This document shows, piece after piece, positions 7,706-30,166 of a DNA stretch of 64,000 nucleotides. Origin of the DNA: Succinimonas amylolytica DSM 2873 (GTDB lineage: Bacteria; Pseudomonadota; Gammaproteobacteria; Enterobacterales; Succinivibrionaceae). A program made the position numbers and the translations under genes. Numbering within the stretch: position 1 is the first letter of the stretch; each line of letters opens with the position of its first letter. The notes beneath the pieces were generated by a model. It was not told the origin of the DNA. It saw only the letters and a program-made list of their open reading frames with translations, and made no database searches. The stretch lies in the NCBI RefSeq assembly GCF_000378405.1, contig NZ_KB899637.1:554050-618049 (forward strand), read 5' to 3'.

Positions 7706-9112
7706 TTATTCTTTAGTGATCCGAAGCTCCCAGGCGGCACTGACGGGCAATGGAAAGCCCCGGGGATCCTGTTCCCGGGGGATCCCGAATTTCTCCCGCC
7801 CCCGAACCGTATCCCGCAGGTGCCAGACTCCCATGATTTCTCCGCCGGTGCTCCACAGGGGATAGCAGCATCTCAGATATACCGGAATCCGGTTTTCCTT
7901 CCAGAAATTTTTGATGAGGGTGCTCCCGCTGCGTCCTGGAAAGCGCAGCTTCTCCGAAAGTGCTGGCAGAAAATGCAGTGTAATTTCCGGAGGTAGCGGA
8001 AGGTCAGGGCCGCTGACTTCGGGATTTCTGACAATCCGGAAAATGTAATCCGGAGAATCTCCGGCGAGCTCCGGATTATCCGGCTGCCCCCCGGAAATCA
8101 GCCTTACGGTGCAGTTCTTCAGACGGTCATGGAAGAACGGTACTCTATGGATGCAGTCCCCGTATACGGTGATCCGGGTGCCGTTTTCCATAATATGCCC
8201 CGTTTTGTCAGGAACCGGAAAAAGCCACATTCTTAAAAGCTCCTCCAGCTTCCCGCGGGAAGGTGTCAGGTTCTGCCGTCTCAGAAACTCCCGGAGAACG
8301 AGCATGACCTCGTCGCGCTCCCGTTCCCGGGAAAAACCTCCGAGATTAAGTACGGGGATGGAGATTCCGGGAAATTTCTGAGTGTTTTCCTTCAGGAGCG
8401 CTGCAATATGACGTTCCAGCACACGTTCTTCCATGGCCAGGTGCTCTACAGTGAGGGCGGTGGCTTCGGCACAGTCAGGGAAGCGTTCTCTCAGGAGCGG
8501 TGTTACGCGGTTCCGGATAAAGTTCCGGTCATAGCAGTCCTTCAGGTTGGTGGGGTCGGTAACATACCGGATGCCATTGCTGCGGGCATATTCCTCGATT
8601 TCGGATCGGGTCATGGAGAGCAGTGGCCGTGCCAGGGTGCCGTTACGGAAGGTCTTTTCCGGCTTCAGGGACAGAAGCCCCCGGAGACTGCTCCCGCGAA
8701 ACAGTGCCAGTAAAACCGATTCCAGAAGGTCGTTTTTATGATGGGCCGTAAAGAGCACCGGGTTATGCAGGGCCTCCATGTGCCGGGAGAGTGCCTCGTA
8801 GCGGACTTTTCTGGCCTCGGCCTCTGTGGATCCCCGGGAGGTATCTACGGTAACGTGCTCGCAGGTGAACGGGATTCCGAGTTCCTGGCAGCGTTTCCGG
8901 CAGAAATCTTCCCAGGAATCGGCGACGGCCTGCAGGTGGTGGTGCACATAGACAGCCTCCAGGCTTGCGGCTTTCTGGCGATTTTTATGGGCCAGTGCCA
9001 AAAGCACGGAGGAATCTGCCCCGCCGCTCAGGGCGATGATCCATGGGCGGCCGGCCCAGCGGGACCAGTCGGGAAGGGCAATGCTGCTGTCAGAGGAGTT
9101 ATGGTGGTTCAT
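7706..9112 (-). CDS. tilS: tRNA(Ile)-lysidine synthetase TilS
   Basis: Essential enzyme that adds lysine to C34 of the CAU anticodon of tRNA-Ile2, changing its charging and decoding. The PP-loop motif SGGADSS (about residues 30-36) binds ATP. It is followed by VYVHHHLQ, by HHKNDLLESVLLALFRGSSLRGL typical of the N-terminal domain (about 120-142), the middle substrate-binding domain, and a C-terminal TilS_C domain ending WGVW-like with PVYLRCCYPLW. The length of 468 is within the family range (E. coli 432). GGAG precedes the ATG. Convergent with the preceding membrane protein gene. Confidence 0.95.
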   Translation of the reverse strand: MNHHNSSDSSIALPDWSRWAGRPWIIALSGGADSSVLLALAHKNRQKAASLEAVYVHHHLQAVADSWEDFCRKRCQELGIPFTCEHVTVDTSRGSTEAEARKVRYEALSRHMEALHNPVLFTAHHKNDLLESVLLALFRGSSLRGLLSLKPEKTFRNGTLARPLLSMTRSEIEEYARSNGIRYVTDPTNLKDCYDRNFIRNRVTPLLRERFPDCAEATALTVEHLAMEERVLERHIAALLKENTQKFPGISIPVLNLGGFSRERERDEVMLVLREFLRRQNLTPSRGKLEELLRMWLFPVPDKTGHIMENGTRITVYGDCIHRVPFFHDRLKNCTVRLISGGQPDNPELAGDSPDYIFRIVRNPEVSGPDLPLPPEITLHFLPALSEKLRFPGRSGSTLIKNFWKENRIPVYLRCCYPLWSTGGEIMGVWHLRDTVRGREKFGIPREQDPRGFPLPVSAAWELRITKE

Positions 9113-9330
9113 ACAGTCTCCGGGTAACCTGTCTCCTCCTATTTTACCGCAGTTTTGGGAAAGGATGATTCCGGCAGTGCTGCCGCGACCTTCCGGGAAA
9201 ATGCTCTTCGCAGATCTTTTCGGATACTGACGGGATAGCCGAAGCTCTCTGCCAGCTTATGAGAAGGTGTATCAGGGGCGTGAAAAGCGAGTACGGCCCT
9301 GGTGGCGGGAAAAGGGAATATGCCTGAACA

Positions 9331-9352
9331 TCAGGGCCCCCAGAGGCCCTGA
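9331..9352. repeat. 8-bp stem-loop between tilS and the next gene
   Basis: TCAGGGCC (9331-9338) and GGCCCTGA (9345-9352) form a perfect stem with a six-base loop. No T-run follows on either strand. It lies between two minus-strand genes and may mark the 3' end of the upstream transcript. Confidence 0.4.
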
Positions 9353-9408
9353 GGGGAGAGAAATAAGAAGGAAACTGCTGTGCTGCATGTCCCTAATGAA
9401 TGAAGTGC

Positions 9409-9924
9409 CTAATCCTCGTCGAAGAAATGCCGGGAGATTCTCTGCCGGGACCTAACCTTTTTCTCGGCACTGTGGGCTATAGCGGAAATGTACTCGCTCA
9501 GAAGATCCAGATTCCGGTTAACCAGGCTGAGGTCGTCATATTCGTCTGAAAATACCTCGGAGGTCCAGAAGCTGTTCAGGTGCACGATTCCGGAGCTGCG
9601 GCTTTTGACCACAATGTCCATGGCTCTCCTGACAATTTCGTCCGGAGAAAAAACTGAATCGCTGTGGGGGATCACTTCCGCGTAGGGAATTTCAAAGAAA
9701 TCCTCCAGCTTCATGACGGTTATGAGATTATCTTTTCTGGCTATCACCTTGCTGTTCCCGATGGCTATGCCGTGCTTCCAGGGCGAAGACAGTTCTGAGG
9801 GATCCGGCGTTCTCAGGTGGGTTCCCCGCGGGTACTCCTTTCTGGGCATATTTTCGGCTGTGAATTCCAGTCCCAGGGATTCGGATATGGTGTCAGGTAT
9901 TATAAGATTGTCAAAAAGATTCAT
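9409..9924 (-). CDS. Hypothetical protein, possibly LRAT/NlpC-like fold
   Basis: 171 residues with no signal peptide or membrane helix. The segment PWKHGIAIGNSKVI (about 48-61) resembles the H-x-G-I-x-G-x-x-x-V-I core of LRAT and related permuted papain-like domains. Near residue 118 the expected NCEHF cysteine motif reads NSFWTSEVF, so if the fold is right the catalytic cysteine may be missing. AAGGAAA before the ATG supports the start. It is divergently placed from the secreted protein at 10350. The family assignment is a weak inference; that it is a gene is reasonably sure. Confidence 0.55.
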   Translation of the reverse strand: MNLFDNLIIPDTISESLGLEFTAENMPRKEYPRGTHLRTPDPSELSSPWKHGIAIGNSKVIARKDNLITVMKLEDFFEIPYAEVIPHSDSVFSPDEIVRRAMDIVVKSRSSGIVHLNSFWTSEVFSDEYDDLSLVNRNLDLLSEYISAIAHSAEKKVRSRQRISRHFFDED

Positions 9925-10349
9925 GATGGCATTTCCTTAAATTATTACCAAGATAACGACTAATTTTTATTAAAATTATACTTATAGCACACCAGAGGAT
10001 AAAAATCCACAAAGATGTTATTATTCACCGCAGTATTGGATGAAAGTGGTAGCAGAGGCCGCTTTATTACAATTAGGGTACTGCAGAAATCCCGGGCGCT
10101 TCTGTTTTCCGGGAAATTGAAAAAGAACATTTTCAGAACCTGATTCCGGAATGCAGTGTCTGGCTTCCGGTACCGCCTCCGGAAGCCCCTGGAAGCCGAT
10201 TTATTATTCCCCGGTGGCGTTCCTGTTGAAATCTCCGGTGCCGGTGATCTATGATTCCGGAAATCCGCAATTCCAGAGCTGCAGTTTTCCCTGACTCCCG
10301 GGACGGCCGCCGGAACCGGAAGGTCATTATTTGCGAGGAGGGAAAATAT
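9925..10349. other. Divergent intergenic region, nothing recognised
   Basis: 425 bp between two divergently read genes, so it should hold both promoters. I see no convincing -10/-35 pair, RNA gene or repeat. An open minus-strand frame covers part of it but runs antisense into the secreted protein gene and has no family features. Confidence 0.5.
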
Positions 10350-13390: not shown

Positions 13391-14140
13391 TTCCATCAAA
13401 TCATAGGTGTTACGACCCCTGATCTCGTTCAGAAAATCAGCGCTTTCATCAACGTATCCCCTTTTATTTTTCTTGAGAACTTCCATGTATGCGTCCTCGG
13501 GGGAAAGCTTAAACCTTACAAACGAATTGGAGCTTGTGTTTTTCGGATTAAGACAGATCCAGACAGAGTATACCTTGCGAATTGTTCCGTAATTAAAATT
13601 CTTTGCCTGGTTCGCTTGTTTTGAAATCAGCCGGCAGCAGTAGTAGATGGCCCGGCATTCCAGAGGATAGCCTGGTTTAAGGTCCTGCTGAATTTCAAGA
13701 TTGATGATGAGAATAACCTTTTCCGGGGTGTCAGTGGAGGTGGTGGTTTTGACGTCTTCTGAGTTGTTATTTCGGAACTGGAAGGATTTCATTTTGCTGC
13801 CAGGTGTGGAAGCACCTTCAGGAACTGCAGCCTGAAAAAGGATATCAAAACGTACGGTTCCTTCGGTAATTGTCGTATCCTCGTTGTTAAGACAGGCAAT
13901 ATTTTCAGATCCTTCGGGGGCATCCTGATCTACAGGAACAGTGCTGATCATCACGTCATCCTGAAGGCAGTTTGTTTTGATAAAGTTGATATCATAATTT
14001 TGAAATTCCGGAGTACAGTACCTCAGAATATTGGCAATAATATCTTTGTTTGCCAGCAGCTTTTTAGCAGCATTGTCTAAACGCGCCTTATCGGCGGCAG
14101 TCTCAAGGTTATTTGCAAAACCAGTGTTTCTGATGTTCAT
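12980..14140 (-). CDS. Rpn-family recombination-promoting nuclease / PD-(D/E)XK transposase-like protein
   Basis: 386 residues of the PDDEXK nuclease family often labelled putative transposase, whose E. coli members (RpnA-E) are DNA endonucleases that raise RecA-independent recombination. An N-terminal helix region (1-50) is followed by the likely nuclease core: RFDILFQA (Asp about 98) and VILIINLEIQQ (Glu about 140), giving a D...ExQ pattern. The C-terminus has a charged GRAE/GHAE/GLAE tetrapeptide repeat then a helical end, both typical of the family. Such genes expand within genomes, and its 3' part is duplicated immediately downstream. No inverted repeats or target duplication seen. Confidence 0.75.
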   Translation of the reverse strand: MNIRNTGFANNLETAADKARLDNAAKKLLANKDIIANILRYCTPEFQNYDINFIKTNCLQDDVMISTVPVDQDAPEGSENIACLNNEDTTITEGTVRFDILFQAAVPEGASTPGSKMKSFQFRNNNSEDVKTTTSTDTPEKVILIINLEIQQDLKPGYPLECRAIYYCCRLISKQANQAKNFNYGTIRKVYSVWICLNPKNTSSNSFVRFKLSPEDAYMEVLKKNKRGYVDESADFLNEIRGRNTYDLMEIIFIGIADVKNDSKIPIIKMLSNTFSRKKSIAARKEILENEFGIKMTEEIKQGVCEMCNLGDALERYGEEKGRAEGRAEGRAEGHAEGLAEGVRITRLKTIRAIIDNFKVSAERAMAIAGVPEEDREEYRKQLSLS

Positions 14141-14917
14141 TTTTTTACAGCTTATTCAGTAATAATTTAAAACGGAGTTCGAATTATAAAAATTTAATAG
14201 TATTTGTCAAATTGTTTATGGTTTGTATAAAATATGAACGGTATAGCAATTTCAAAAACTTTTAGGATGAAATGGCTTTGGAGCGGTTTTTTATGCGTTT
14301 TTCGGCCGCCTTTATCTCTGTTTGAAAATTTATTTTGCAGGTGTTTCTGGAAATCAGGGGGGGCTGAAATTGGGGGGGCTGCGTTTTCCGGAATCACACT
14401 TTTTTGGAGTGATAGCTGTCACTTAGCTGTGGCCGCGTCTTTGGAGTGATAAAGGAGGTTTTAGAGGGGACGGTCTGACTTTTATGTATAGCATGGTGGA
14501 CAGTTCCGCCAGGAAAGCGGATACATCTCCTGAGTCCCGGCCGGAATGGCCTGAAAGAGCCCCCCGGTCAATACTGGGACAGAACGAGGAGCAGGAATAT
14601 TCTGTATGTTCAAAAACACTCGTTTTATTTTTATAAAAATGAAGATGCGGCAGAAAATTCGCTTTGTTTTCGGTGTTGTAATACCCTGTAAAAATTTTTA
14701 GAAATGTGATGTAGTTCACATTTTATAAACAAACCCCAAAATCTAAGCGTAAAAAAGGCGAATATTTTACACAAGTCTCATTTTTTGAAATAAAATAGGA
14801 AAATTTTATTTGTCTGTTAAAGATATCGACGGTTCAGTGCGGCCGGTGTCACAGACCGCCCGGAAGCCCCGCTTCCGGTATGAACTATTTGTTAAAAGTT
14901 AGGAGTAATCTGCTTCA
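14141..14917. other. Long leader region upstream of rpoBC
   Basis: 777 bp without a credible gene where gammaproteobacteria usually have rplL. It holds a CRP-type site (14702-14723), an AT-rich stretch with possible -10 boxes (about 14763 and 14795), a GGAAGC-CCC-GCTTCC hairpin (about 14870) close to rpoB, and a duplicated TTTGGAGTGATA motif near 14404 and 14440. The rpoBC promoter must lie here. Confidence 0.55.
14702..14723. promoter_or_regulatory. CRP (cAMP receptor protein) binding site
   Basis: Perfect TGTGA-N6-TCACA (14705-14720) embedded in AAA...TTT, matching the CRP consensus at every scored position outside the spacer. A TATTTT about 40 bp downstream on the plus strand would place the site near -61.5, a class I position. 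It lies about 195 bp before rpoB; the controlled transcript is inferred to be rpoBC. Confidence 0.65.
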
Positions 14918-17900
14918 ATGAAGATATCCAACACCGAAAAGAAGCGCATCCGCAAGAGCTTTGGTCAGAGACCTCAGTTTATCGACGTGCCTTATCTGCT
15001 TTCCATTCAGGTCGATTCCTATGACCGTTTCATTACCCCGGACCATAACGGAGAATGCAGACTTTCAAATGCCATCAAAAGCGTTTTCCCGATAGTCAGC
15101 GCCAATGGTCAGGCCATTCTGGAATACGATTCCTTCCGGCTTGAGGAACCTGAATTCAACGTTCGCGAGTGCCTTATCCGCGGTGCCTCATACCAGTCCT
15201 CTCTCCGGGTGAAGCTCCGTTATGTGCAGAAGGAAAAGGACGGCAAGGTAGTAAACGTCAAGGAGCAGGAAGTATACATGGGCGAGATTCCGCTCATGAC
15301 TGAAAACGGCACCTTCGTTATCAACGGTACCGAACGCGTGGTGGTTTCCCAGCTGCACAGATCTCCTGGTGTCTTCTTTGACAGCGACAAGGGCAAGAAC
15401 TATCCGGGCCGTACGATTTTCGGAGCCCGTGTCATCCCGGCCCGCGGTTCCTGGCTGGATTTTGAGTTCGATCACAAGGATAATCTTTTTGTCCGTATTG
15501 ACCGCAAGAGAAAGCTTCCGGCAACCCAGCTGCTCCGTGCCTACGGTTTTGACAACGAACAGATTATCAATATCTTCTTTGATACCACCTTCTTTGAAGT
15601 CAAGAACGGCAAGATCTGGATGGAGGTTATTCCGGAAAGACTTGACGGCCAGACCCTTAACTTCGACATTAAGGTTGGAGACAAGGTTATTGTCGAGAAG
15701 AACAAGAAGATCTCCAAGCGCCACATAAGACAGCTGGCCAAAGCCGATATTACCAATACCATTGAGGTATCCAAGGGCGTTAAGGTCAAGGCTGTCGAGA
15801 TCCCCGAGGAATACCTCTTCGACAAGCTGCTGGCCCGTAATTACTATGATAAGCAGGGCAATCTTATCGCCGAAGTGAACACAAATGTCACTGCCGACGT
15901 GCTCCTGGCACTGGCCGAGAACAAGATCAAGAAGTTCGAGGTTATCTACACCAGCAATGTCGATGACGGTCCGTTTATTTCCTCTACGCTCACCATCGAT
16001 CCCACTGTTACCAGAAAGGACGCTCTTTACAGCATCTATGCCACCATGCGTCCCGGCGATCGTCTTGACGAGGAAACAGCCAGCGATTTCGTGAACCGGA
16101 TGTTCTTCAATTTCGACCACTACGATCTTTCTGAAGTAGGCAGGATGAAGTTTGACGAGCATTTTAAGGAAAACGAGGCTCTGGCCAATGGCGTCAAGTA
16201 TTTTGTATCCGCCGGCGAATACAACAAGGAGGATTCAACCCTCTTTATCAAGGACGGCGTGGTATACATGGAATTCCCGGCCTTCCTGAAGGCGGTAGCC
16301 ACAACCAAGGACAAGACTGCTGAGCTTATTCCTTCCCGAGTTCCGGATCGCGGCTATTTCAAGTTCTTTGACAATGTCCGCCGTTCCGTGATTCCTGCCG
16401 TGGCTGATGAGGATGCCACCAACGAGAAGCGCTATATCCGCGATGTAACTGTTGACGGCGTTGCCAAGAAGATGTTCGCCATCAGACTTTCTGATGTGCC
16501 TCTGGACATGAACTGCGAGAACTTCGCCGGCACCATTGAGGACAGCTCAAAGATCCCTGCTGTCGCTGATTATGTATTCCCCGAGCCGGAGAGAGTTCTC
16601 TCTACCAATGACATCATCCGGGTAATGCGCTATCTTATCAAGATCAGAAACGGCAAGACCAGCGTTGACGATATCGACCATCTCGGCAACCGCCGTATCA
16701 GAAGTGTGGGCGAGCAGACCGCCAATCACTTCCGTATCGGTCTTCTGCGTATCGAAAAGGCTGTTAAGGAGCGTTTCAACAAGGGCGAGCTTGATGCTAT
16801 CACCCCCGAGGATCTGATTAACGCCAAGCCGGTTTCTGCTGCAGTGAAGGAATTCTTCTCATCCTCGCAGCTCTCTCAGTTCATGGATCAGAACAACCCG
16901 CTTTCCGAGGTTTCCCACAAGCGCCGTATCAGCGCCCTGGGTCCCGGCGGTCTTACCCGTGAACGTGCCGGCTTCGAGGTTCGAGACGTTCACCCGACCC
17001 ATTACGGCCGTCTCTGCCCCATTGAGACTCCGGAAGGTCCGAATATCGGTCTTATTAACTCTCTCTCAGTTTACTCCCGCTGCAACGATTACGGCTTCCT
17101 TGAGACTCCGTACCGCCGCGTGGTGGATGGCCAGGTTACTGACGACTTCGATTATCTGTCCGCTGTTGACGAGGGCAACTATGTAATTGCTCAGGCCAAT
17201 GCAGACCTCGATGAGAACAACTACTTCAAGAATGAAATCATACCGTGCCGCTTCCAGGGTGATTCCACCTTCAAGCGTGCCAGTGAAATCCGCTACATGG
17301 ACGTTTCTCCGCAGCAGATTATTTCAGTATCCGCTTCTCTGATTCCGTTCCTGGAGCACGATGACGCTAACCGTGCCCTCATGGGATGTAACATGCAGCG
17401 TCAGGCCGTTCCGACCATCATTTCGGAAAAGCCCTTTGTAGGTACTGGCATTGAACGTGCTGTGGCCGAGGACTCCGGTGTTACCACCATGGCCAGACAC
17501 GGCGGCGAGGTTATCTATGTTGACGGCTCCCGTATTGTGGTGAAGGTAAATCTGGAGGAGGTTGTTCCCGGGGATCCCGGCATTGATATCTACAATCTTT
17601 CCAAGTACACCCGTTCCAACCAGAATACCTGCCTTAACAAGCGTCCATGCGTATCGCTTGGCGAAAAGGTCAAGGTTGGTGACGTAATTGCCGACGGTTC
17701 CTCCACCGACATGGGCGAGCTGGCTCTGGGACAGAACCTCCGCATTGCGTTCATGCCGTGGAATGGCTTCAACTTCGAAGACTCCATCATGGTATCCGAG
17801 AGAGTTGCCAACAACGACCGTCTGACCACCATTCATATTCTTGACTTCACCTGCCAGGCACGTGATACCAAGCTCGGACCAGAGGACATTACCTGCGACA

Positions 17901-19369: not shown

Positions 19370-19425
19370 CATTTTAATCAATGTCTCCGGCTGTTATGGC
19401 CGGAGGCTTACAGAGGTATATTATT

Positions 19426-22400
19426 GTGAGCGATAACGAAATCCAAAACATTTTTGGAGCGGGCGCTTCCGTACTGGCCGATACCAGTATAACCCGCAGG
19501 ATGTCAGAGCTTGGCCGTGAGGCTCAGCGTCAGAAGGATAGCGCCGATTTTGACGCCATCAAAATCAGTCTGGCCTCTCCTGAGAAGATCCGCGCCTGGT
19601 CCTGGGGCGAGGTTAAGAAGCCTGAGACCATTAATTACCGTACCTTCAAGCCGGAGCGTGACGGTCTTTTCTGTGCCAAGATCTTCGGACCGGTGAAGGA
19701 TTACGAGTGTCTTTGCGGCAAGTACAAGCGCCTCAAGCATCGCGGTACTGTCTGTGACAAGTGCGGTGTTGAGGTGACTCTCTCCAAGGTACGCCGTGAA
19801 CGTATGGGACACATTGATCTTGCAGCTCCGGTAGCACATATCTGGTTCCTGAAGTCTCTGCCTTCCCGTATCGGCCTTATTCTGGACATGAAGCTTAAGG
19901 ATATTGAAAGTGTTCTTTATTTCGAAAGCTATGTGGTAACTGATCCTGCTGATACCGACCTGGAAACCGGTCAGATTCTGTCCGAGGACGAATACTATGA
20001 GCGCGTCAGCAATGATGAGTATTTTGAGGCCAGAATGGGCGCCGAGGCTCTTTTGGAGCTTCTTAAGAATGTGGACCTCAGCCTTGAAATCACCAAGGTG
20101 CGCGAGGAGCTGGACAGCACCACTTCTGAGACTGTCAGAAAGAACCTGACCCGCCGTCTTAAGCTTATGGAGGACTTTGTGGCCTCTGGAAACCGTCCGG
20201 AATGGATGATCCTTACCGTCCTTCCGGTACTTCCTCCGGATCTCCGGCCGCTGGTACCGCTGGAGGGTGGCCGCTTTGCGACCTCTGATCTTAATGAGCT
20301 CTACAGACGTGTTATTAACAGAAATAACCGTCTTAAGAGACTTCTCGAGCTTAATGCCCCGGATATCATTGTCAGAAACGAAAAGCGTATGCTCCAGGAG
20401 TCTGTGGACGCTCTGATGGACAACGGCCGCCGTGGCAGACTGGTCACCGGCTCTAACAAGAGAGCTCTCAAGTCTCTGGCAGACATGATTAAGGGCAAGC
20501 AGGGCCGCTTCCGTCAGAATCTTCTCGGCAAGCGCGTTGACTATTCCGGACGTTCTGTAATCACCGTAGGTCCTTTCCTGAGAATGCATCAGTGCGGTCT
20601 TCCCAAGAAGATGGCCCTGGAACTTTACAAGCCGTTCATTTACGGCCGTCTCGAGGCCTCCGGATTTGCCACCACCATCAAGGCTGCCAAGCGCATGGTA
20701 GAACGCGAGGATCCCGAGGTATGGGATATCCTGGATGAGGTGGTTCGTGAGCATCCGGTGATGCTGAACCGTGCTCCGACTCTCCACCGTCTCGGTATTC
20801 AGGCATTTGAGCCCGTTCTTATTGAAGGCAAGGCTATCAGACTTCATCCTCTGGTATGTACCGGCTTTAACGCCGACTTCGACGGCGACCAGATGGCAGT
20901 GCACCTGCCGCTGACCCTGGAGGCTCAGCTCGAAGCACGTGCGCTCATGCTTTCCACCAACAATCTGCTTTCACCGGCTTCCGGCGAACCTATTATCGTT
21001 CCTTCTCAGGACGTGGTTCTGGGGCTTTACTACATGACCAGAATGCGCGTGGGTGCCAAGGGCGAGGGTATGATTGTGGCCGATGCCGAAGAGGCAGAGC
21101 GTCTGTACCGTACCGGACTTGCCGATCTCCAGGCCCGTATCAGATGCCGCATTGTAGACTACCGCAAGCTGCCTGACGGTACCTTCGAGGAAAACTCCTC
21201 TATTCGTACCACTACTATCGGCCGTGCCATCCTCTCGGTGCTGATTCTCCCGAAGGGACTCAGCTATGATCTCATTGATCCTCCGAGAAAGCTTACCGCT
21301 GAGGAGCAGGAATCCCTCAGACAGCATCCTGAGAGCTGGTTCAAGTACGTTTCCAATGAACCTCTTGGCAAGAAAAAGATCGGAGCGCTTCTGAATGCCT
21401 GCTACCGTGCTCTCGGCCTTAAGGACACTGTAATGTTCGCCGACCGTATTATGTACACCGGCTTCAGATTTGCAGCTCTTTCCGGCTGCTCCATCTGCAC
21501 CGACGACATTCTTATCCCCAAGAGCAAGGCAACTCTGCTTTCTGAGGCCGAGAAGGCGGTTAACGAAATTCAGAGCCAGTACGAAGGCGGTGAAATCACT
21601 GTGGGCGAACGCTACAACAAGGTGGTGGATATCTGGGACCGCGCTTCCAAGAACCTTTCCCGCGTGATGATGGAAAACCTCCGTACCGAGGAGGCTGTCA
21701 ACATCCTGGGTGAAACCGAGAAGCAGGCATCCTTCAATACCATTTATATGTACGCCGACTCCGGTGCCCGTGGTTCCGAGAAGCAGATTTCCCAGCTGGC
21801 AGCCATGCGCGGACTTATGTCAAAGCCGGACGGCGCCATCATCGAGACTCCTATTACCTCCAACTTCCTTGAAGGTCTGGACGTTCTTCAGTACTTCATC
21901 TCGACTCACGGTGCGCGCAAGGGTCTTTCCGATACCGCGCTCAAGACCGCTAACTCCGGTTATCTGACCCGCCGTCTTGTTGACGTGGCTCAGGATCTCG
22001 TGATTACCGAGGATGACTGTGGCAGTACCGACGGTCTCTGGATTACTCCGCTTTCCTCCGGCAACAGCGCTGTGGAAAGTCTCCGTGACCGTGCTCTCGG
22101 CAGAGTGCTGGCTGAGGATGTTATTAAGCCGGGTACCAAGGATGAGGTGGTTATTCCCTATAACACTCTCCTGGACGAAAAGCTTTGCGATCTCCTTGAA
22201 GCTAATGGCATTGACCGTATCAAGGTGCGTTCTGCCATTACCTGTAACGCCAGATACGGTATTTGCGCTCACTGCTACGGCCGCGATCTGGCCCGCGGTA
22301 TCCTGGTGAACCGCGGCGAAGCAGTAGGCGTTATGGCTGCTCAGTCCATCGGCGAGCCTGGTACTCAGCTTACCATGCGTACCTTCCACATCGGCGGTGC

Positions 22401-24018
22401 GGCATCAGCAGCAGCTGCGGACAATACCGTAGTGGTCAAGCGCGCTGGCAAGGTGATTATCAATGCCCGTACCATCACCCGTGAGGATGGCAAGCTGGTG
22501 GTGGTTTCCCGTTCCGCTCATCTCTATGTTGATGACGAAAAGTTCGAGAGCCATAAGCTTCCGTACGGCGCTGTGCTTTATGTCAAGAACGGCGAGAAGG
22601 TTGTCAGCAACACCACTGTGGCAGAGTGGGATGCCCACGCGCATCCGACGGTTTCGGAATACCATGGTTTTGTGAAGTTCCGCGATATGGAAATCGGTGT
22701 TACCATCGACCGCAAGGAAGACGAGGGTACCGGTAACTCCTATATCGAGGTTCGTGAATCTGCAAACCGCAAGGTAGCTCCGGTGAACCCTGGAAAGCCC
22801 AAGTTCAATCCTGGCGAGATGCCGGTGCTGTCCGATGAGGATTGCAAGGACACCGAGAAGGTCAAGGAATTTGAGGTTCGCCTGGCTCAGTGGAAGTCAG
22901 ACAAGAAGCTTTACGATGCCCAGGAAAAGAATTACCGCAACTACATGTCTCAGATGAACGCGTACAAGGCCGTTATTGACATGCGTCCTACCATCTATCT
23001 GGTGGACGAGAACGGCTCTCCGGTACTTGATGCCAACGGCAAGGAAGTTTCCTACATGCTTCACGCCAAGTCCATTGTGCGTATTGAGGAAGACCAGGAA
23101 ATCTATCCGGGTGATGTTATTGCTTCCATTCCGCAGAAGGCTGCCGGAACCAAGGACATCACCGGCGGTCTGCCGAGAGTGGCCGACCTGTTTGAAGCCA
23201 GAAATCCGAAGGAACCGGCAATTCTTGCCGAGTACTCCGGTGTGGTATCATTCGGCAAGGAAACCCGCATCAAGAAGAAGCTGGTGATTACTCCTACTGA
23301 GCTCGGTCCTGACGGCAAGCCTCTTGAGCCGTTCGAGATCGCCGTTTCCTCTTCACGTGACGTTAATGTCATCGAGGGCGACGAGGTTAAGAAGGGCGAG
23401 CCCATTGCTGACGGTCCGGAATCTCCCCATGATATTCTGCGCCTCCGCGGTGTTGAGGCGGTTGCCAACTACATTGTTTCCGAGGTTCAGCAGGTATACC
23501 GTCTCCAGGGCGTTAAGATCAACGATAAGCATATTGAGATGATTGCCCGTCAGATGCTGAGAAAGTGTGAAATCGTTGATCCGGGCGATTCCAAGGAGTT
23601 CATCAAGGGCGAACAGGCTGAGTATTCCTACGTGAAGAGCGATAATGAGGAGCTTAACAGACTGCACAAGAGACCGGTAACCTTTAACCGGATTCTCATG
23701 GGTATCACCAAGGCATCTCTCAATAACGAGTCCTTTATCAGTGCCGCCTCCTTCCAGGAGACCACCAGAGTTCTCACCGAAGCGGCAGTGGCCGGCAAGG
23801 TTGATGAACTGCGCGGTCTTAAGGAAAACGTCATTGTGGGACGTCTTATCCCGGCAGGTACCGGCTTCAGCTATCATGAGAGACGCCGCCGGGCAGCTGA
23901 GCTCCGGGCTCTTCAGTCCCGCGAGGGATCTGACAGCGTTGCTCAGACCGCAGCCGAAATTGCTTCCGATGAGCTTGCCAGAGGGCTTAGCGAGCTTGGC
24001 AGCATTACCAATGACTGA
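19426..24018 (+). CDS. rpoC: RNA polymerase beta' subunit
   Basis: Large catalytic subunit, about 1530 residues from the GTG at 19426, which has AGAGG ten bases upstream; an ATG at 19381 lacks such a site. The zinc-binding [20 protein letters not shown] lies near the N-terminus and the Mg-binding [12 protein letters not shown] at about 482-493. Bridge and trigger regions such as [21 protein letters not shown] are conserved. Compared with E. coli (1407 residues) it has an N-terminal extension of about 25, an insertion of about 25 near residue 630 ([20 protein letters not shown]) and one of about 63 near 1130 that is Lys/Tyr-rich and lies within the SI3 region. Confidence 0.98.
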
Positions 24019-24043
24019 CAGTCGTAACGGACTTTGATTTGTG

Positions 24044-24066
24044 AGCGGCTTTCGGGCCGCTTTTTC
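24044..24066 (+). terminator. Terminator of rpoBC
   Basis: AGCGGC (24044-24049) pairs with GCCGCT (24056-24061), followed by TTTTTC, 26 bp after the rpoC stop. Confidence 0.8.
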
Positions 24067-24235: not shown

Positions 24236-24240
24236 GCTTT
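24236..24240. repeat. Target site duplication, left copy (GCTTT)
   Basis: GCTTT directly before the terminal TGT of the transposon. The same five bases follow its other end at 28992-28996. A 5-bp duplication is the hallmark of Tn7/Mu-type DDE transposition. Confidence 0.9.
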
Positions 24241-24309
24241 TGTACTTTGCTAAATAAAACTGTTGTTATATGCTAATCTAAACTGTTGCTTTTGTTAATT
24301 TAAACTGTT
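24241..24309. repeat. Left transposon end with three TnsB-type sites
   Basis: Three copies of a G(C/T)TAA-x-(T)AAACTGTT motif at about 24244-24264, 24270-24287 and 24292-24309, spaced 21-26 bp. The innermost overlaps the tnsC stop codon. These are the expected binding sites for the TnsB transposase by analogy with Tn7. Confidence 0.8.
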
Positions 24310-25981
24310 ATTTAGGTACATCCTCTATAGGCAGGTCGCTGCTAAGTGCAACCGTCATTTTGGCCTCATCCTTTTCTTTGGATTCGCTGGTTGCTATTTC
24401 TTTGAAACGTTTAGAAATCTCACTTATCACCTTGTTCCAAATAGGGACGATATCCCCTGTCTTTTGCTCTCTGATTTTAAGATGAAGCATTTCTATGAGA
24501 TTCATGTTGGACAGGTCATATTCGCAGCCGGCGGCAATACTCAGGCAGTCTTCAATGATTTCATCATCAGTTGCCAGATCAGTAGTGCTGACAGTTTGCC
24601 TGGCAGTCTCTGCGATTCTGGCACGTGATTTATTCAGGGCTTCAGTAAAAACCGGTTTCGGAATTATCAGATCCTGATATTCGTTAATCTTTTGAATATC
24701 GTTATCCTTAAGAGCTCTGATCATGGGCTCAATTGATTGAAAGTTATCGTTAAAAACCGTTTTGATGGCACTGGCAGAGAGAGTTTCTCTGCCTATTTCC
24801 ATTTCGCGCATCTCCGCCAGGACGAACAATTTCATGAGGATATCTATCACTCCCTGACTGCATTCATAAAGGGTTTTCCGGATGTCATCGGGAATCAATA
24901 CCGGATCATTCTTCAGGATCCGGTGTGACCAAAGATCTATGATAAATTCATCCCACTCGCCTACAGTTCCATTATTGCCTGGTATCAGACGGTTCCAGTA
25001 GTAAACACCGCAGCTGGCAAAACGCCGGGCGATCCTCAGATTATCTTGAAAGAACTGCAACGCCTTGGGGGTGCCAACATAGAGAACCGGTATTTTCAGG
25101 GTGTTGGAGAGACTGACCAGGAAATTAAACAGGATCTCATGATTGTGCCGGTAATGAACAAGATTCTGGATTTCGTCAATAATGAGAAGTCCCACCTTGT
25201 GCTTATCCATAAGCCTCAGCGCGCGGGCCATCAGTATTTCCAAAGTTATGCGGCGGCTGTTAAGAAAGCCATCCGCATAATTCTGCCTCACGCAGTTTGC
25301 CAATTCGGAGATTATTCTGGTAAAAAGAACTTTGACGCTGCCGTCTGCGGGACAATCCACCTTCAGGTAAATTGCCTGAATAAAATCCTCTTCCCCTTTG
25401 CGCTTATGCCGAACAGCTCGCGGAAAGAGGCCTAAAATCTTCTCTATCGCATAGGATTTGCCGATGCCGGAACATCCAATGACAGCTGCAGAGAGACAGC
25501 TCTGCGTCTTGCTGAAGGGCTCATTTATTTTGTACTGCTCTTTAACCTCTTCCAGAGTGGGAATATGGTCTGCCTCTTCGTCTATGCTCCTGTTTTTGTA
25601 TCCCAGTTTAAGTAGCAAAACAATAAGATTATGGATTTGAATATGACGTGCCAGAGGGAAGAAAGCATCTGTTGCCAGAGACATGAGGTAGTCTGAGCGC
25701 TGAATTCTGTTGGCATAGTCATTCGTCCTTTGCGGTTCGCTTTTCAGATGATCGCAGATGGTTCTGGTGGTCATGGAACTGAAGTCGGGCAGCACTGCTG
25801 TCAGAGGATTGGCTGTAATACTGGCATCCCGGCTGTATGAATAATTTGAAGGAGTAGCTTCCTGTATCTGACACTGCTGCCCGTTCGACGAAATCAGCTT
25901 GCCGGCATCGCAGGCCTCATCAGTGCCGCGGGCATTAACGGATACGCTATCAGCTTTTGATTCTGTCGTTGTTTCAGTCAT
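24308..25981 (-). CDS. tnsC: TnsC-like AAA+ transposition regulator
   Basis: ATP-dependent protein that in Tn7 bridges target DNA or target selector and the TnsAB transposase. 557 residues from the ATG at 25981 (AAGGA site), which overlaps the tnsB stop as ATGACTGA, implying coupled translation. Walker A GCSGIGKS lies near 170 and Walker B LLIIDEIQ near 267, followed by a sensor region (LYVGTPKAL). The Ser/Thr-rich N-terminal 60 residues look disordered. At the C-terminus a helical region could contact TnsAB. Because the element lacks TnsD/TniQ, this protein may choose targets itself, as MuB does; that is inference. Confidence 0.88.
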   Translation of the reverse strand: MTETTTESKADSVSVNARGTDEACDAGKLISSNGQQCQIQEATPSNYSYSRDASITANPLTAVLPDFSSMTTRTICDHLKSEPQRTNDYANRIQRSDYLMSLATDAFFPLARHIQIHNLIVLLLKLGYKNRSIDEEADHIPTLEEVKEQYKINEPFSKTQSCLSAAVIGCSGIGKSYAIEKILGLFPRAVRHKRKGEEDFIQAIYLKVDCPADGSVKVLFTRIISELANCVRQNYADGFLNSRRITLEILMARALRLMDKHKVGLLIIDEIQNLVHYRHNHEILFNFLVSLSNTLKIPVLYVGTPKALQFFQDNLRIARRFASCGVYYWNRLIPGNNGTVGEWDEFIIDLWSHRILKNDPVLIPDDIRKTLYECSQGVIDILMKLFVLAEMREMEIGRETLSASAIKTVFNDNFQSIEPMIRALKDNDIQKINEYQDLIIPKPVFTEALNKSRARIAETARQTVSTTDLATDDEIIEDCLSIAAGCEYDLSNMNLIEMLHLKIREQKTGDIVPIWNKVISEISKRFKEIATSESKEKDEAKMTVALSSDLPIEDVPK

Positions 25982-28055
25982 GAATGTCCTTAATTGAAGT
26001 TGGATAATGATAATCTGACTCAGACTGTTCCATGCCAGAGGTTTCATTTACTTCTGATGGTGCGGCTGCGGATAATGCATTATCGGAAGTACCGGAAGCA
26101 CTGTCTTCCGCATCTGATGAATTCGGAGCAGGCACACGCCGGTTATTCTTTTGCTCCCGACTGAATTCCTCCTTCCGGGCTTCGACCAGATCCTTAATTT
26201 TCTTTTTGGCTTCCTTTGTATCCGCGGTTTTCCGCTTCTCCGCTTCGCCGCATATTTCGCTCACTTTGCGGTTTGCCTTTTTTCTCATCTGGTCATACTC
26301 TTCCTGAGCTGCCTTATATGCCTCCTGCCGGGATTTGTTCAGATGCTGACCTTCCCATAATGTCATATTTTTGTACTGAGAGCACTGCGGAGCGAGCTGA
26401 CATACCTTGTAATTTGTAATATTGTCTGGCTCATCAAAGAGATATGCCACTGATATATCTGCCGGATCCAGAGCAATCCATGCATTTTTTGGGCGATATG
26501 GCGTGCTGTTTCTGATAAATGCTCCGCTGGCGTCAAGTTCGCTGTTCCAATATCTCAGTGAGGTTATCGGTGCTCCTGAAGCCAGAATCCCTTCCCTGGA
26601 AAATGAGGCTTCATAGCGGGGCAGCATCAAGATTCTAATGGTGGCAATGCTGATTGTGTTAAGCAGACAGTTTCTTCCGGTTTTTTGCCCCCATTTCCAT
26701 ATTTCTATGCTGGAGGGCTTGCCATCCTGAGGATAGCCGTCAGGCAAGTAATCCCTCAGATGGTTATTGCATGCAATCGCCATTGTGATGGCAATTTCCA
26801 TATATTTGGATAGTGTCAGCGTCGCATAAGGACGCAGATCTTCGGCTCCGGCTTTTTTCAGCTTAACCTTGCTGGGTTTTGCTTTAATAAACTCTGATAC
26901 TGAACTCTGAATGAGTTCTATAAGCCTTTCCACATTGCCTTTCTGATCACCGCGGTAGGAGCCTGTATTGTGCAGTGTTATTCCCAGATTTCCGACCAGA
27001 AGATCGCTCTGATACCCCATAAGTTCAGCGTTATCGCACACTATTTGCGCCGGAATTCCGCTGCATGGCCACGCATCTTCAGTGATTTCCACTCCGTAAC
27101 GCCTGCAAAACTCTGCTTTAGGAGCAAATGCTGAATAGAGAGTATCCGATGCGGAATTAAATGTTGCAGACTCTAAGGTTACATTGATGCCGACAATCAT
27201 TCCGGAGAAGACATCAGAAACTATGTAGAGGGTAGGTCTGCCGACAACCTGATTAGGATCTCTGGAACTTACGAGATAGACATCATCAGTGGTTGAGTCA
27301 ATTTCATAAATCCCTCCCGGCCCCTCTGTCATATCAGCTGCCTTACCTCTGAGCGACCTTATGTCCTTATTAAACCTGATGGCGGTATTCTGTTTTATGG
27401 CTCTCTCAAGTTTGGTGTAATGCTGTTCAAAGTAGTATCGCAGCTGTGTTCTGCTTGGTGCCGGCGTGCCTGGATACTTCCTTTCCCACTCATCAAGACT
27501 GTGTATGTACGCCTTGTCCATGGATACATGATTCTGTTTCAGCAGGTATTTTTTGCAGATCATTTCCAGATGAGCTTCCATTTCCGGGGAACGCGGGCAT
27601 TTTCCCTTGCGTCCGCTGCTATGAATTCCTGTTGTCCGGCCGCTTTCCGGAATAAGAGCAGTTACAGAAAGTCCTTTTTTCCAAAAGGCTAACAGATTCC
27701 TTTTCAGCTTGATAAGCAGTTTTTTATCGCCTCCGGCTGCATCTCTGAAGACAGCCTTTCTGGTGATCGGATTGTACAGCCTGGGATCGCTGACCAGTTC
27801 CTGAATTGAATCAAATCTGCTTTGCGCCCGTTCCAGGAGTTTTGGCGAAACAGCGGACATCCTGAGCCCCTCATAGGGATCCCGCAGATTTTTTGCCGCT
27901 CCGTTTTTGAAGGCATCAGCAATTTGCTCAGCAGAATAATTCTCCAGTTCCAAAGTATCGTGGTACAGAGGGAAAAGAACAAACTCATTCTCCATCTGCC
28001 AGATAATGCGAAAGCAGGTGCCATCAATTTCCAAAACATCATTTACCGCTGTCAT
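25974..28055 (-). CDS. tnsB: TnsB-like DDE transposase
   Basis: Strand-transfer transposase, 693 residues. It has N-terminal DNA-binding region(s) (about 1-230, basic), then an rve/RNase H-like catalytic core with the triad Asp in YEIDSTTDD (about 252), Asp in VCDNAE (about 340) and Glu in KGNVERLIE (about 375). The 35-residue D-E spacing is right for the family. A beta-barrel region follows. The C-terminal 130 residues are Lys/Glu-rich then Ser/acidic, where TnsB contacts TnsC in Tn7. A GGAGAG stretch precedes the ATG. It should bind the three sites at each transposon end. Confidence 0.92.
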   Translation of the reverse strand: MTAVNDVLEIDGTCFRIIWQMENEFVLFPLYHDTLELENYSAEQIADAFKNGAAKNLRDPYEGLRMSAVSPKLLERAQSRFDSIQELVSDPRLYNPITRKAVFRDAAGGDKKLLIKLKRNLLAFWKKGLSVTALIPESGRTTGIHSSGRKGKCPRSPEMEAHLEMICKKYLLKQNHVSMDKAYIHSLDEWERKYPGTPAPSRTQLRYYFEQHYTKLERAIKQNTAIRFNKDIRSLRGKAADMTEGPGGIYEIDSTTDDVYLVSSRDPNQVVGRPTLYIVSDVFSGMIVGINVTLESATFNSASDTLYSAFAPKAEFCRRYGVEITEDAWPCSGIPAQIVCDNAELMGYQSDLLVGNLGITLHNTGSYRGDQKGNVERLIELIQSSVSEFIKAKPSKVKLKKAGAEDLRPYATLTLSKYMEIAITMAIACNNHLRDYLPDGYPQDGKPSSIEIWKWGQKTGRNCLLNTISIATIRILMLPRYEASFSREGILASGAPITSLRYWNSELDASGAFIRNSTPYRPKNAWIALDPADISVAYLFDEPDNITNYKVCQLAPQCSQYKNMTLWEGQHLNKSRQEAYKAAQEEYDQMRKKANRKVSEICGEAEKRKTADTKEAKKKIKDLVEARKEEFSREQKNNRRVPAPNSSDAEDSASGTSDNALSAAAPSEVNETSGMEQSESDYHYPTSIKDIHD

Positions 28056-28090
28056 GACTTGTCTCTCCGTCTGCTTGTTTCTGTGACATC

Positions 28091-28888
28091 TTAGAACCCT
28101 ATGGGGGTGAAATCCTTAAGAAGCGAAGATGTTATGGGTTTTTCGGACATGGGAAAATGCCAGAGGTTCCAGGCCACAAGCATGCGGAGGCAGTCATTGA
28201 TCCTCAGTGGATATCCATGCAGTTCAATAATCTCACTGCATTCACTGTACGGAAGTTCCGGGGCTGTCGCTGTGATCTCCTTCATAAGTTCACTGATGGC
28301 ATTTCTGTCATCATCAGTTATTTCTGTCAGGATATTTCGAGTGCCTGAAATAAGTTTGAAATTGGATTTAAGAATGGGCGAGAAATCTGATGACAGCCAG
28401 ATGGCGAAAGGGATCCCTTTGCGTTCCCAATACTTTCGTTCTATCTGGAGCTTGCTGTTGGTGCGCGGATCCATAATCGTCTGTTTTGAATCCTTTACCT
28501 GAATAGCTTTGTAGTATAAATGATCGCCTTTCTTATACGTCACCAGAAAATCAGTGGTCATGACTATATCACGACCTCCGATTCCGGGGTGGATCAGACG
28601 CATTTCCTTGCAAATATCCCTGGTGTTTGCTGGATCAATCGGAAACTGTTCCCTGACGTCCGCTACATCATTCTGCCATTCAAGGATATAAAAAGCTATT
28701 GCTTCGCCAAATGACAAAACATTAATGACACGCTGTAGCTTCCTGCTCCACATGCGACTGCATCCGACAGGTGATCTAACATCTCTTACCGTTAGCCATG
28801 AGACATAATCTTTAAGCTCGCCTTGTCCTCTTCCGAGCTGTACCCATCTCTCATAATCATCAGCAAAGTTTGTCCTTGCTTTTGGCAT
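28091..28888 (-). CDS. tnsA: TnsA-like endonuclease
   Basis: Restriction-enzyme-like nuclease that cuts the 5' strands at the transposon ends, turning copy-in into cut-and-paste transposition. 265 residues from the ATG at 28888, which has a perfect GGAGG eight bases upstream. The likely active site is Glu about 62 (FGEAIAFY), Asp about 113 (MTTDFLV) and Lys about 132 (IQVKDSKQ), almost the same positions as E63, D114 and K132 in Tn7 TnsA. A C-terminal helical domain for TnsC contact follows. First gene of tnsABC, 35 bp before tnsB. Confidence 0.9.
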   Translation of the reverse strand: MPKARTNFADDYERWVQLGRGQGELKDYVSWLTVRDVRSPVGCSRMWSRKLQRVINVLSFGEAIAFYILEWQNDVADVREQFPIDPANTRDICKEMRLIHPGIGGRDIVMTTDFLVTYKKGDHLYYKAIQVKDSKQTIMDPRTNSKLQIERKYWERKGIPFAIWLSSDFSPILKSNFKLISGTRNILTEITDDDRNAISELMKEITATAPELPYSECSEIIELHGYPLRINDCLRMLVAWNLWHFPMSEKPITSSLLKDFTPIGF

Positions 28889-28921
28889 AAAACCATCCTC
28901 CACAAACGTTATGAGTTCATG

Positions 28922-28991
28922 GTAACAGTTTATTTAGCAAAGTAAACAAGTTAATTTAGCAATTTACAACTGTTTTATTTAGCAAAGTACA
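28922..28991. repeat. Right transposon end with three TnsB-type sites
   Basis: On the minus strand the end reads inward with three copies of a TTTGCTAAATAAAAC-type motif at about 28969-28991, 28947-28965 and 28922-28944. The outermost 20 bp equal those of the other end. The inner sites sit between the end and the tnsA start, where bound TnsB could also repress the operon. Confidence 0.8.
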
Positions 28992-28996
28992 GCTTT
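28992..28996. repeat. Target site duplication, right copy (GCTTT)
   Basis: Identical to 24236-24240 and immediately followed by the ATG of the HAD phosphatase gene. Confidence 0.9.
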
Positions 28997-30166
28997 ATGA
29001 ACAGAATTAATAAATCCCTGGCAGCTGCCACTGTGGTTCTGGGAGTTGGTTTTGCAGCGTTACTGACGCATACCCTTACGGAGGTGCCGGCAGATCCTTC
29101 CTGTTCCGGCATTCCGGAGCTTCAGGCCGGGAGCTCTGCAGTATCTGCCGCCCCGGGGGTTAAAAGGGAGGCCCTGAGTCTCTGGACTAATGAAGCCCCG
29201 GCTAAAAAGGCGCTTCTGGAATATCTGGAAGCCATTACCGAAAAATCCGGAACTGACTATATTCCGGAGCAGGATCGTATTGCTGTTTTCGATCTGGACG
29301 GCACCCTGTTCTGTGAAACAGATCCGAACTATTTTGATTATATGCTTCTTAAGTATCGGGTTCTTGATGATCCGGACTATCGGGATCGGGCTTCCGAATT
29401 TGAGCGGAAAGTGGCCCTGAAGATTCAGGAGCAGAATGAAACCGGCAAGGCCTTTCTCGGTCTTGAGACCGAGCATGGCCAGGCAGTGGCTTCAGCCTTT
29501 CGCGGCCTGACAATGGAACAGTTTGATGCCTATATCCAGGAATTTAAGAAACAGCCTATGCCCGGCTATGACGGAATGCTGCGGGGGCAGGGCTTCTACC
29601 GCCCTATGCTGGAGATTGTGGATCTGCTTCATGATAACGGTTTTACCGTTTATGTAGTCAGCGGTACCGACCGGTTTATTGTCAGGGGAATTCTCCATAA
29701 TTCTCCTTTGGCGCTTCCGGATCGTCTGATTATCGGATCGGATGAAAACCTGATTGCCTCCGGGCAGGGGGAGACTGCCGGTCTTAGCTATACCATGACC
29801 CGGGATGATTCTCTTGTTCTGGGCGGCGAGTTCCTCATTAAGAACCTTAAAATGAACAAGGTGACGGTTATTATGCAGGAAATCGGTCAGAAGCCGGTTC
29901 TGGCTTTTGGCAACAGTACCGGAGACAGCAGCATGGCCCAGTTTGTAACCTCCGGGAACAAATACCGCAGCCTCGCATTTATGCTGGCGGCGGATGATCT
30001 GGTCCGGGAAAATGGCAGCATGGCCAAGGCCGAAAAGATGTATGACCTCTGTCACCAGTTCAGCTGGATTCCCATTTCCATGAAAAGTGACTGGAAAACT
30101 ATTTATGGCGACGGGGTAACCAGAAAGGTTCCGGTTGCTGCAGCCGGGGAACAGTCTTCTAAATAA
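28997..30166 (+). CDS. Exported HAD-superfamily phosphatase
   Basis: 389 residues. A long N-terminal hydrophobic segment (about 8-26) acts as signal peptide or anchor. HAD motif I FDLDGTLF is near residue 99 (first Asp nucleophile, second Asp acid/base), motif II VVSGTDRF near 220, and motif III/IV FGNSTGDSSM near 300, so all catalytic groups are present. The pattern is that of phosphoserine-phosphatase-like HAD proteins found in the periplasm; substrate unknown. The ATG directly follows the target duplication of the Tn7-like element. The former leader with its weak GAAGAG site is now 4.75 kb away, so expression depends on the transposon end. Confidence 0.8.
   Translation: MNRINKSLAAATVVLGVGFAALLTHTLTEVPADPSCSGIPELQAGSSAVSAAPGVKREALSLWTNEAPAKKALLEYLEAITEKSGTDYIPEQDRIAVFDLDGTLFCETDPNYFDYMLLKYRVLDDPDYRDRASEFERKVALKIQEQNETGKAFLGLETEHGQAVASAFRGLTMEQFDAYIQEFKKQPMPGYDGMLRGQGFYRPMLEIVDLLHDNGFTVYVVSGTDRFIVRGILHNSPLALPDRLIIGSDENLIASGQGETAGLSYTMTRDDSLVLGGEFLIKNLKMNKVTVIMQEIGQKPVLAFGNSTGDSSMAQFVTSGNKYRSLAFMLAADDLVRENGSMAKAEKMYDLCHQFSWIPISMKSDWKTIYGDGVTRKVPVAAAGEQSSK

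Follow-up and report, generated by a model that had tools for sequence, protein, structure and literature searches.

A Tn7-like element with only tnsA, tnsB and tnsC in Succinimonas amylolytica, and its counterpart in a second genus of the family

Organization of the element

The window analyzed here is a stretch of 64,000 nucleotides from Succinimonas amylolytica DSM 2873 (Succinivibrionaceae; contig NZ_KB899637.1, positions 554,050 to 618,049). It contains a Tn7-like transposon of 4,751 bp in which tnsA, tnsB and tnsC are the only recognizable genes, all on the minus strand. Its features, in window coordinates, are:

24241-28991: whole element, 4,751 bp, with TGT...ACA ends, three TnsB-type repeats per end and a GCTTT duplication
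24236..24240, no strand: left copy of the target-site duplication GCTTT
24241..24309, plus strand: left end, TGT terminus and three TnsB-type repeats (24248-24264, 24271-24287, 24293-24309)
24308..25981, minus strand: tnsC, AAA+ regulator (Pfam TniB/AAA_22; Tn7 TnsC 4e-62; reading frame open to 26047)
25974..28055, minus strand: tnsB, DDE transposase (Tn7 TnsB 1.9e-70)
28091..28888, minus strand: tnsA, endonuclease (Pfam Tn7_TnsA-like_N; Tn7 TnsA 1.3e-39; alternative GTG start at 28903)
28929..28991, minus strand: right end, three TnsB-type repeats (28929-28944, 28951-28966, 28974-28989) and ACA terminus
28992..28996, no strand: right copy of the target-site duplication GCTTT

The Tn7 E-values come from phmmer comparisons with the sequences of solved structures, in which the alignments to Escherichia coli Tn7 span residues 6-188 of 270 in TnsA, 3-653 of 693 in TnsB and 79-486 of 579 in TnsC. 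Pfam, at E 0.01, recognized TnsA and TnsC and gave no match in TnsB. Alignment to Tn7 and to a counterpart element in another genus (genome G005, described below) indicates that tnsA probably starts at ATG 28888 and tnsC at ATG 25981. In the columns aligned to what we take to be the Tn7 active-site positions, TnsA has E67, D118, Q135 and K137, TnsB has D253, D341 and E376, and TnsC has the Walker A and Walker B motifs GCSGIGKS and LLIIDE. A structure model of TnsC, with a mean predicted local distance difference test score of 35.9, was not used.

The left end starts TGTACTTTGCTAAATAAAAC at 24241, and the right end is its inverted copy, finishing at 28991. The terminal 20 bases of the two ends are identical, the repeats within each end are spaced 22-23 bp apart, and the inverted end arms cover 63 nt at 78% complementarity, against 26 nt and 77% for the longest inverted pair in the region without the ends. 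These boundaries, from the termini and repeats to the duplication, are exactly those drawn by a first-pass annotation of the same DNA. The TGT/ACA termini, arrays of TnsB-type repeats and 5-bp duplication are those of Tn7-like ends, and the genes agree with the description of Tn7-like elements as a TnsB-type transposase beside at least one other Tn7 protein (as worded in PMC8649781).

At its 3' end tnsC runs into the innermost terminal repeat of the left end, and genes and ends together leave about 60-75 bases of the element unassigned, so that there is no room for a guide RNA or a hidden gene. A TniQ model found no match (E up to 0.01) among the open reading frames (ORFs) of at least 60 amino acids in the window. 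We therefore rejected a selector gene or guide RNA concealed inside the element. The TniQ/TnsD protein usual in Tn7-like elements is absent here and from the G005 counterpart, and between 24241 and 28991 there is neither a TniQ-model match nor space for the Cas genes and guide array of a CRISPR-associated transposon. The Tn7 alignments and the TniQ scan thus bear out the first-pass view of an intact, cargo-less element with three genes and their active-site residues. In a survey of 6,549 Tn7-like elements, 96% reportedly carry cargo.

A counterpart in a second genus

TnsB relatives occur in 7 of 56 genomes of the host family, and the only close relative outside the window's genome (G000) is in G005, which belongs to another genus of the same family. 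The G005 element measures 4,891 bp, also contains tnsABC only, has intact ends with three repeats each, is flanked by its own duplication (ACAAG) and lies at a genomic place unlike the window's. Identity between the two is 64% for TnsA, 67-68% for TnsB and 61% for TnsC. The estimates of nonsynonymous (dN) and synonymous (dS) divergence, given as dN/dS, are 0.25/2.99 for tnsA, 0.25/2.47 for tnsB and 0.32/not computable for tnsC, with dS at or past saturation. A dN of about 0.25-0.32 beside a saturated dS indicates that the genes have been kept under selection without tniQ and that the reduced form is old, as far as substitution patterns can tell.

The first-pass annotation had proposed that related copies with tniQ would mark this element as a deletion product. 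Its nearest relative likewise has tnsABC only, with intact ends at another site, which weakens the idea of a lone deletion product. A profile scan of genome contigs with the TnsC alignment returned one relative, a contig of the metagenome-assembled genome RUG12740 (uncultured Aeromonadales bacterium) that encodes a TnsC identical to that of G005; the corresponding scan with TnsB returned nothing and missed G005 itself, such scans being of limited sensitivity. No match was found in viral contigs scanned with the TnsB alignment and the end pattern, or in phage records scanned with TnsC. A plasmid search with TnsB gave 702 records, all below 60% identity.

Loss of tniQ among related loci

To place the missing tniQ in context, we surveyed 42 stretches (the window and 41 others from 33 genomes), a non-random set picked by match to the window's TnsB. 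A TniQ model based on 16 seeds was used to score their ORFs; since the seeds overlap the scored loci, the result is a count of presence and not an independent test of the model. Tn7-type tnsA, tnsB and tnsC occur together in 33 stretches, of which three were dropped because fewer than 150 bases follow tnsC and one is unreadable there, leaving 29 to be judged. A tniQ/tnsD gene lies within 1.8 kb after tnsC in 22 of the 29 and 9.5 kb away in one. The six without it are the window element, the G005 counterpart and four loci that all adjoin glmS (L127, L128, L131 and L134, the first two nearly identical); these four look like in-place losses of tnsD. In some of the 29 loci, L123, L126 and L135 among them, tns genes are split or short. 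A further stretch, L094 (G059), has tnsA and tnsB adjoining glmS with no detectable tnsC.

The TnsB phylogeny suggested by the first-pass annotation was built from 33 rows, with 7 of 40 tnsB stretches left out as partial, distant or near-duplicate, and was midpoint-rooted for drawing only. The two TniQ-less elements pair with 100/100 support, inside a ten-row set from the host family that is itself supported at 100/100. Also in this set are tniQ-bearing elements (G005 C49/C8, G038, G044 and G049), the second element that the window's genome carries, a G049 element truncated where its contig stops, and two TnsB genes that stand alone; the tree gives no branching order among its four sublineages. 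Absence of tniQ holds for the G005 counterpart and does not extend to the more distant relatives in the family. Because tniQ occurs both within and outside the ten-row set, the simplest reading of the tree is that it was lost on the branch of the tnsABC-only elements.

The lone TnsB-like genes (L093:9107-10951 in G015 and L095:1938-3851 in G023; 614 and 637 aa) have no tnsA or tnsC match nearby and no paired ends that could be found; by eye, the DDE-like motifs are kept in the L093 gene, while two seem lost in that of L095. The 5,816-bp contig L091 (G049 C175) amounts to barely more than one tnsABC-tniQ unit with a right terminus TGTACA, which suggests a collapsed multi-copy, cargo-less element.

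The loss of tniQ on this branch, most likely given that relatives within the TnsB clade carry the gene, bears on the possibility that the element is a decayed or deletion derivative of a TniQ-bearing transposon, moved only with help and now static. The four glmS loci resemble losses of that kind. The tnsABC-only elements, however, share their reduced form across two genera at different sites with intact ends, their genes show the substitution pattern of selection, and the window's genome has an identical right end at another place, and we consider such a derivative very improbable.

Insertion sites and further copies

The genes on either side of the insertion in the window are:

19381..24018, plus strand: upstream neighbor, rpoC, followed by a terminator-like hairpin (24043-24062) before the insertion
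28997..30166, plus strand: host gene for a HAD-type hydrolase, with its ATG directly after the right GCTTT duplication

The upstream gene, which we take to be rpoC, was named from the look of its sequence and not by a family search. The insertion starts 217 bp beyond its stop codon, past the hairpin, and sits between a GAAGAG stretch and the ATG of the HAD-type gene; the flanks rejoined without the element read GAAGAGTTAGCTTT-ATG. The insertion has thus probably cut the HAD-type gene off from its own ribosome-binding site, to judge from the rejoined flanks, and the place does not look like a chosen safe site. Nor is it the canonical site of Tn7, as no glmS match was found in the window. In the search for an empty site, rpoC was not found in the 3.7-4.2 kb around the HAD-type gene at four loci in three relatives. 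In G005 the element sits downstream of a C39-peptidase-like gene, whose Pfam score of 23.9 bits falls just below the cut-off of 24.

Searched with the left-end DNA, the window's genome gave three matches, one at each end of the element and one on a different contig (G000 C5), where 34 readable bases are identical to the window's right end. This further right end is about 430 bp upstream of the gene for a Tn916-type integrase (L085:7419-8603; PF00589 1.4e-28, PF02920 1.6e-27), and the copy there is probably inside an integrative element because of that proximity. The search for the ends in related bacteria, which the first-pass annotation had recommended, was run over the 56 family genomes. All five strong matches fall in G000 and G005, and the remaining 17 rows (E 0.001 to 0.09) were regarded as chance.

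The guanine and cytosine content of the 100-bp flanks is 48/51% in the window, 55/54% in G005 and 44% at the third site, where only the right side is available. No motif common to the flanks of the three known insertions was seen in a comparison by eye. A host protein, or an unrecognized gene elsewhere in the genome, might in principle select targets for this TnsC. Host factors are described as joining such complexes, as L29 and ACP do with TnsD of Tn7 and S15 does in ShCAST (PMC11406308). No candidate host selector was seen here, however, and the three sites have no common feature evident by eye; we regard this explanation as improbable.

Autonomy or a selector in trans

We read the element as an autonomous, insertion sequence (IS)-like derivative of Tn7 in which target capture by TnsC needs no selector from the element itself, and we give this reading a probability of roughly 55%. 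Several points weigh against it. First, the tnsABC-only element is carried by two species among the 56 family genomes, and for this reason just three insertion sites are available, one of them by its right side only. Second, a signature of selector-independent activity was sought in TnsC, at positions A225, E273, A282 and S401, reported as gain-of-function positions of Tn7 TnsC. The element has K, Q, A and Q there; TniQ-bearing relatives vary at these positions too, nothing follows from them, and the signature was dropped.

Third, the selector negatives for the window's genome hold for its readable sequence only. A stand-alone tniQ, which the first-pass annotation had advised looking for, was sought there with PF06527 and with a TniQ model of the subfamily, and none over cut-off appeared in the readable parts. 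PF06527 at E 0.001 gave no match in the window's genome, in a search in which no control matched either; at E up to 1 it gave a single match, which at 15.4 bits stays below cut-off and contains two stops, and it exceeded cut-off in 11 of the 15 genomes searched with it. The subfamily model had no match in the window's genome. It matched in 4 of 8 genomes; its rows came from three of these four, and the other one has a nearly identical element. The TnsE model (PF18623, TnsE_C) found nothing over cut-off in G000 or G005, so that the TnsE of canonical Tn7 seems to be lacking as well; it exceeded cut-off in 7 of 12 genomes, namely in every one of the seven entered as likely positives. The TnsD model PF15978 gave nine matches in G000, all under cut-off and several in 443-aa ORFs at different places. 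These ORFs, which recur on several G000 contigs and give weak matches to the TnsD model, probably belong to a multi-copy insertion sequence.

Fourth, both genomes with a tnsABC-only element also hold a related Tn7-like element, and this co-occurrence is the best evidence against full autonomy. The companion in G005 bears tniQ. It spans two contigs (C49/C8), one with the tnsAB end and the other with the tniQ end and the last part of tnsC, joined by a common terminal sequence and the duplication GTTAA; its terminus lies about 100 bp past tniQ, so there is no cargo at that end. In the window's genome the companion (L084, G000 C1) has tnsA at 14427-15239 and tnsB in two pieces (13601-14440 and 8960-10285).

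The tnsABC-only element might accordingly rely on TniQ supplied in trans by this co-resident companion. This is the main rival to autonomy, and we think it unlikely, if less so than a host selector. The two companions pair in the TnsB tree (100/99), with a G049 element as next neighbor, so that the genomes of this closest pair are exactly those with the tnsABC-only type. Other elements of the subfamily, counted by tnsA and tnsB, occur in 5 of 56 genomes (G000, G005, G038, G044 and G049, with G000 included though its tniQ was not seen), and both hosts belong to these five (hypergeometric 0.0065, ignoring genome relatedness and mobile-element load). The companion in G005 carries the one intact tniQ found in that genome, and a truncated second copy of its tniQ end lies on C16 (L179:1395-2001; 96% identical over 607 bp). 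In contrast, the TnsC proteins of companion and element are distant (34.6% identity over 78 residues for G000 C1, 32% over 53 for G005), in the window's genome an IS66-type insertion splits the tnsB of the companion, whose tniQ position falls in unreadable sequence, and a TniQ partner is system-specific in another case, TnsF being reported to bind the TniQ of Tn6022 and not five others (PMC10293859).

We also aligned 20 TnsC proteins. Conserved columns were defined on 13 TniQ-bearing rows; besides these and the two tnsABC-only proteins, the alignment contains three TniQ-less rows from glmS loci (G126, G122, G246) and two cut by contig ends (G359, G049b). The 62 conserved columns include 48 that both tnsABC-only proteins keep. 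Their individual retention of 0.77 and 0.82 compares with 0.59-1.0 for the TniQ-bearing proteins in a leave-one-out test. In the N-terminal motif NPxIxALP, I and A are kept in the 18 other rows and are replaced by T and V in both. We treat this change as a lead only, since the overall loss does not go beyond that of divergent TniQ-bearing proteins and residues 86-555 of Tn7 TnsC are reported to work with TnsD (an unpublished observation cited in PMC2918618); the motif is not a proven TnsD contact. The same account places the TnsD contact within residues 1-293 of Tn7 TnsC and describes TnsC as a DNA-binding protein that lacks sequence specificity and controls TnsA and TnsB (PMC2918618).

Relation to known systems and proposed mechanism

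Compared with E. coli Tn7 (tnsABCDE), the element has clear homologues of TnsA, TnsB and TnsC, repeated TnsB-type sites and a 5-bp duplication; it differs in having no tnsD, tnsE, cargo or glmS site. The ends of Tn7 are unequal, whereas each end here has three evenly spaced repeats. The tnsABC-tniQ elements of the host family (G005 C49/C8, G049 C175, G038, G044) belong to the same TnsB clade (100/100) and differ in the presence of tniQ and in a TnsB only about 31-35% identical to the window's. In phage Mu (MuA/MuB) and IS21 (IstA/IstB), a transposase works with an AAA+ target-capture protein and no TniQ. This way of working resembles the one proposed here; the element differs in having a TnsA endonuclease and Tn7-type proteins, and we claim no membership. 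Tn5469 of Fremyella diplosiphon also lacks cargo and is described as apparently only untargeted (PMC11406308); judged by that description, it differs in having one TniQ.

In the proposed mechanism, TnsB, bound to the three repeats of each end, would bring the two ends together, and TnsA and TnsB would cut the element out, the presence of TnsA suggesting cut-and-paste excision. TnsC, bound to ATP and target DNA with no TniQ/TnsD placing it, would then recruit and activate TnsAB at loosely chosen sites, acting as MuB does for Mu and leaving 5-bp duplications. TnsC of this lineage would thus engage target DNA and activate TnsAB without TniQ, and TnsABC alone would suffice, with a loose choice of target. 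The first-pass annotation had offered untargeted, MuB-like insertion or a selector in trans; its premise that the element has no selector stands, and a selector in trans keeps some probability beside untargeted insertion, given the related elements in both hosts.

Published descriptions place Tn7-like elements under tight restraint until a dedicated selector recognizes the target, and call TniQ proteins near-universal among them (PMC11406308). The survey of 6,549 elements gives tnsD in 73-97% per clade and median lengths of 14-29 kb (PMC8649781). TniQ/TnsD is therefore usual and not strictly defining for Tn7-like transposons, and TniQ-less loci as such are already implied by those percentages; no description of an intact tnsABC-only element was found in the literature searched, within article text as distinct from supplementary tables. 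The overlap of tnsC with the innermost terminal repeat illustrates the degree of reduction that a Tn7-like element can reach. Whether these elements form a long-lived, three-gene, IS-like Tn7 lineage in which TnsC is self-sufficient for target capture and transposase activation, so that dependence on a selector has been undone in nature, seems to us evenly balanced. If true, a natural, selected tnsABC-only lineage would make it possible to study which features of TnsC impose or lift this restraint, and the element would be a small candidate tool for guide-free insertion.

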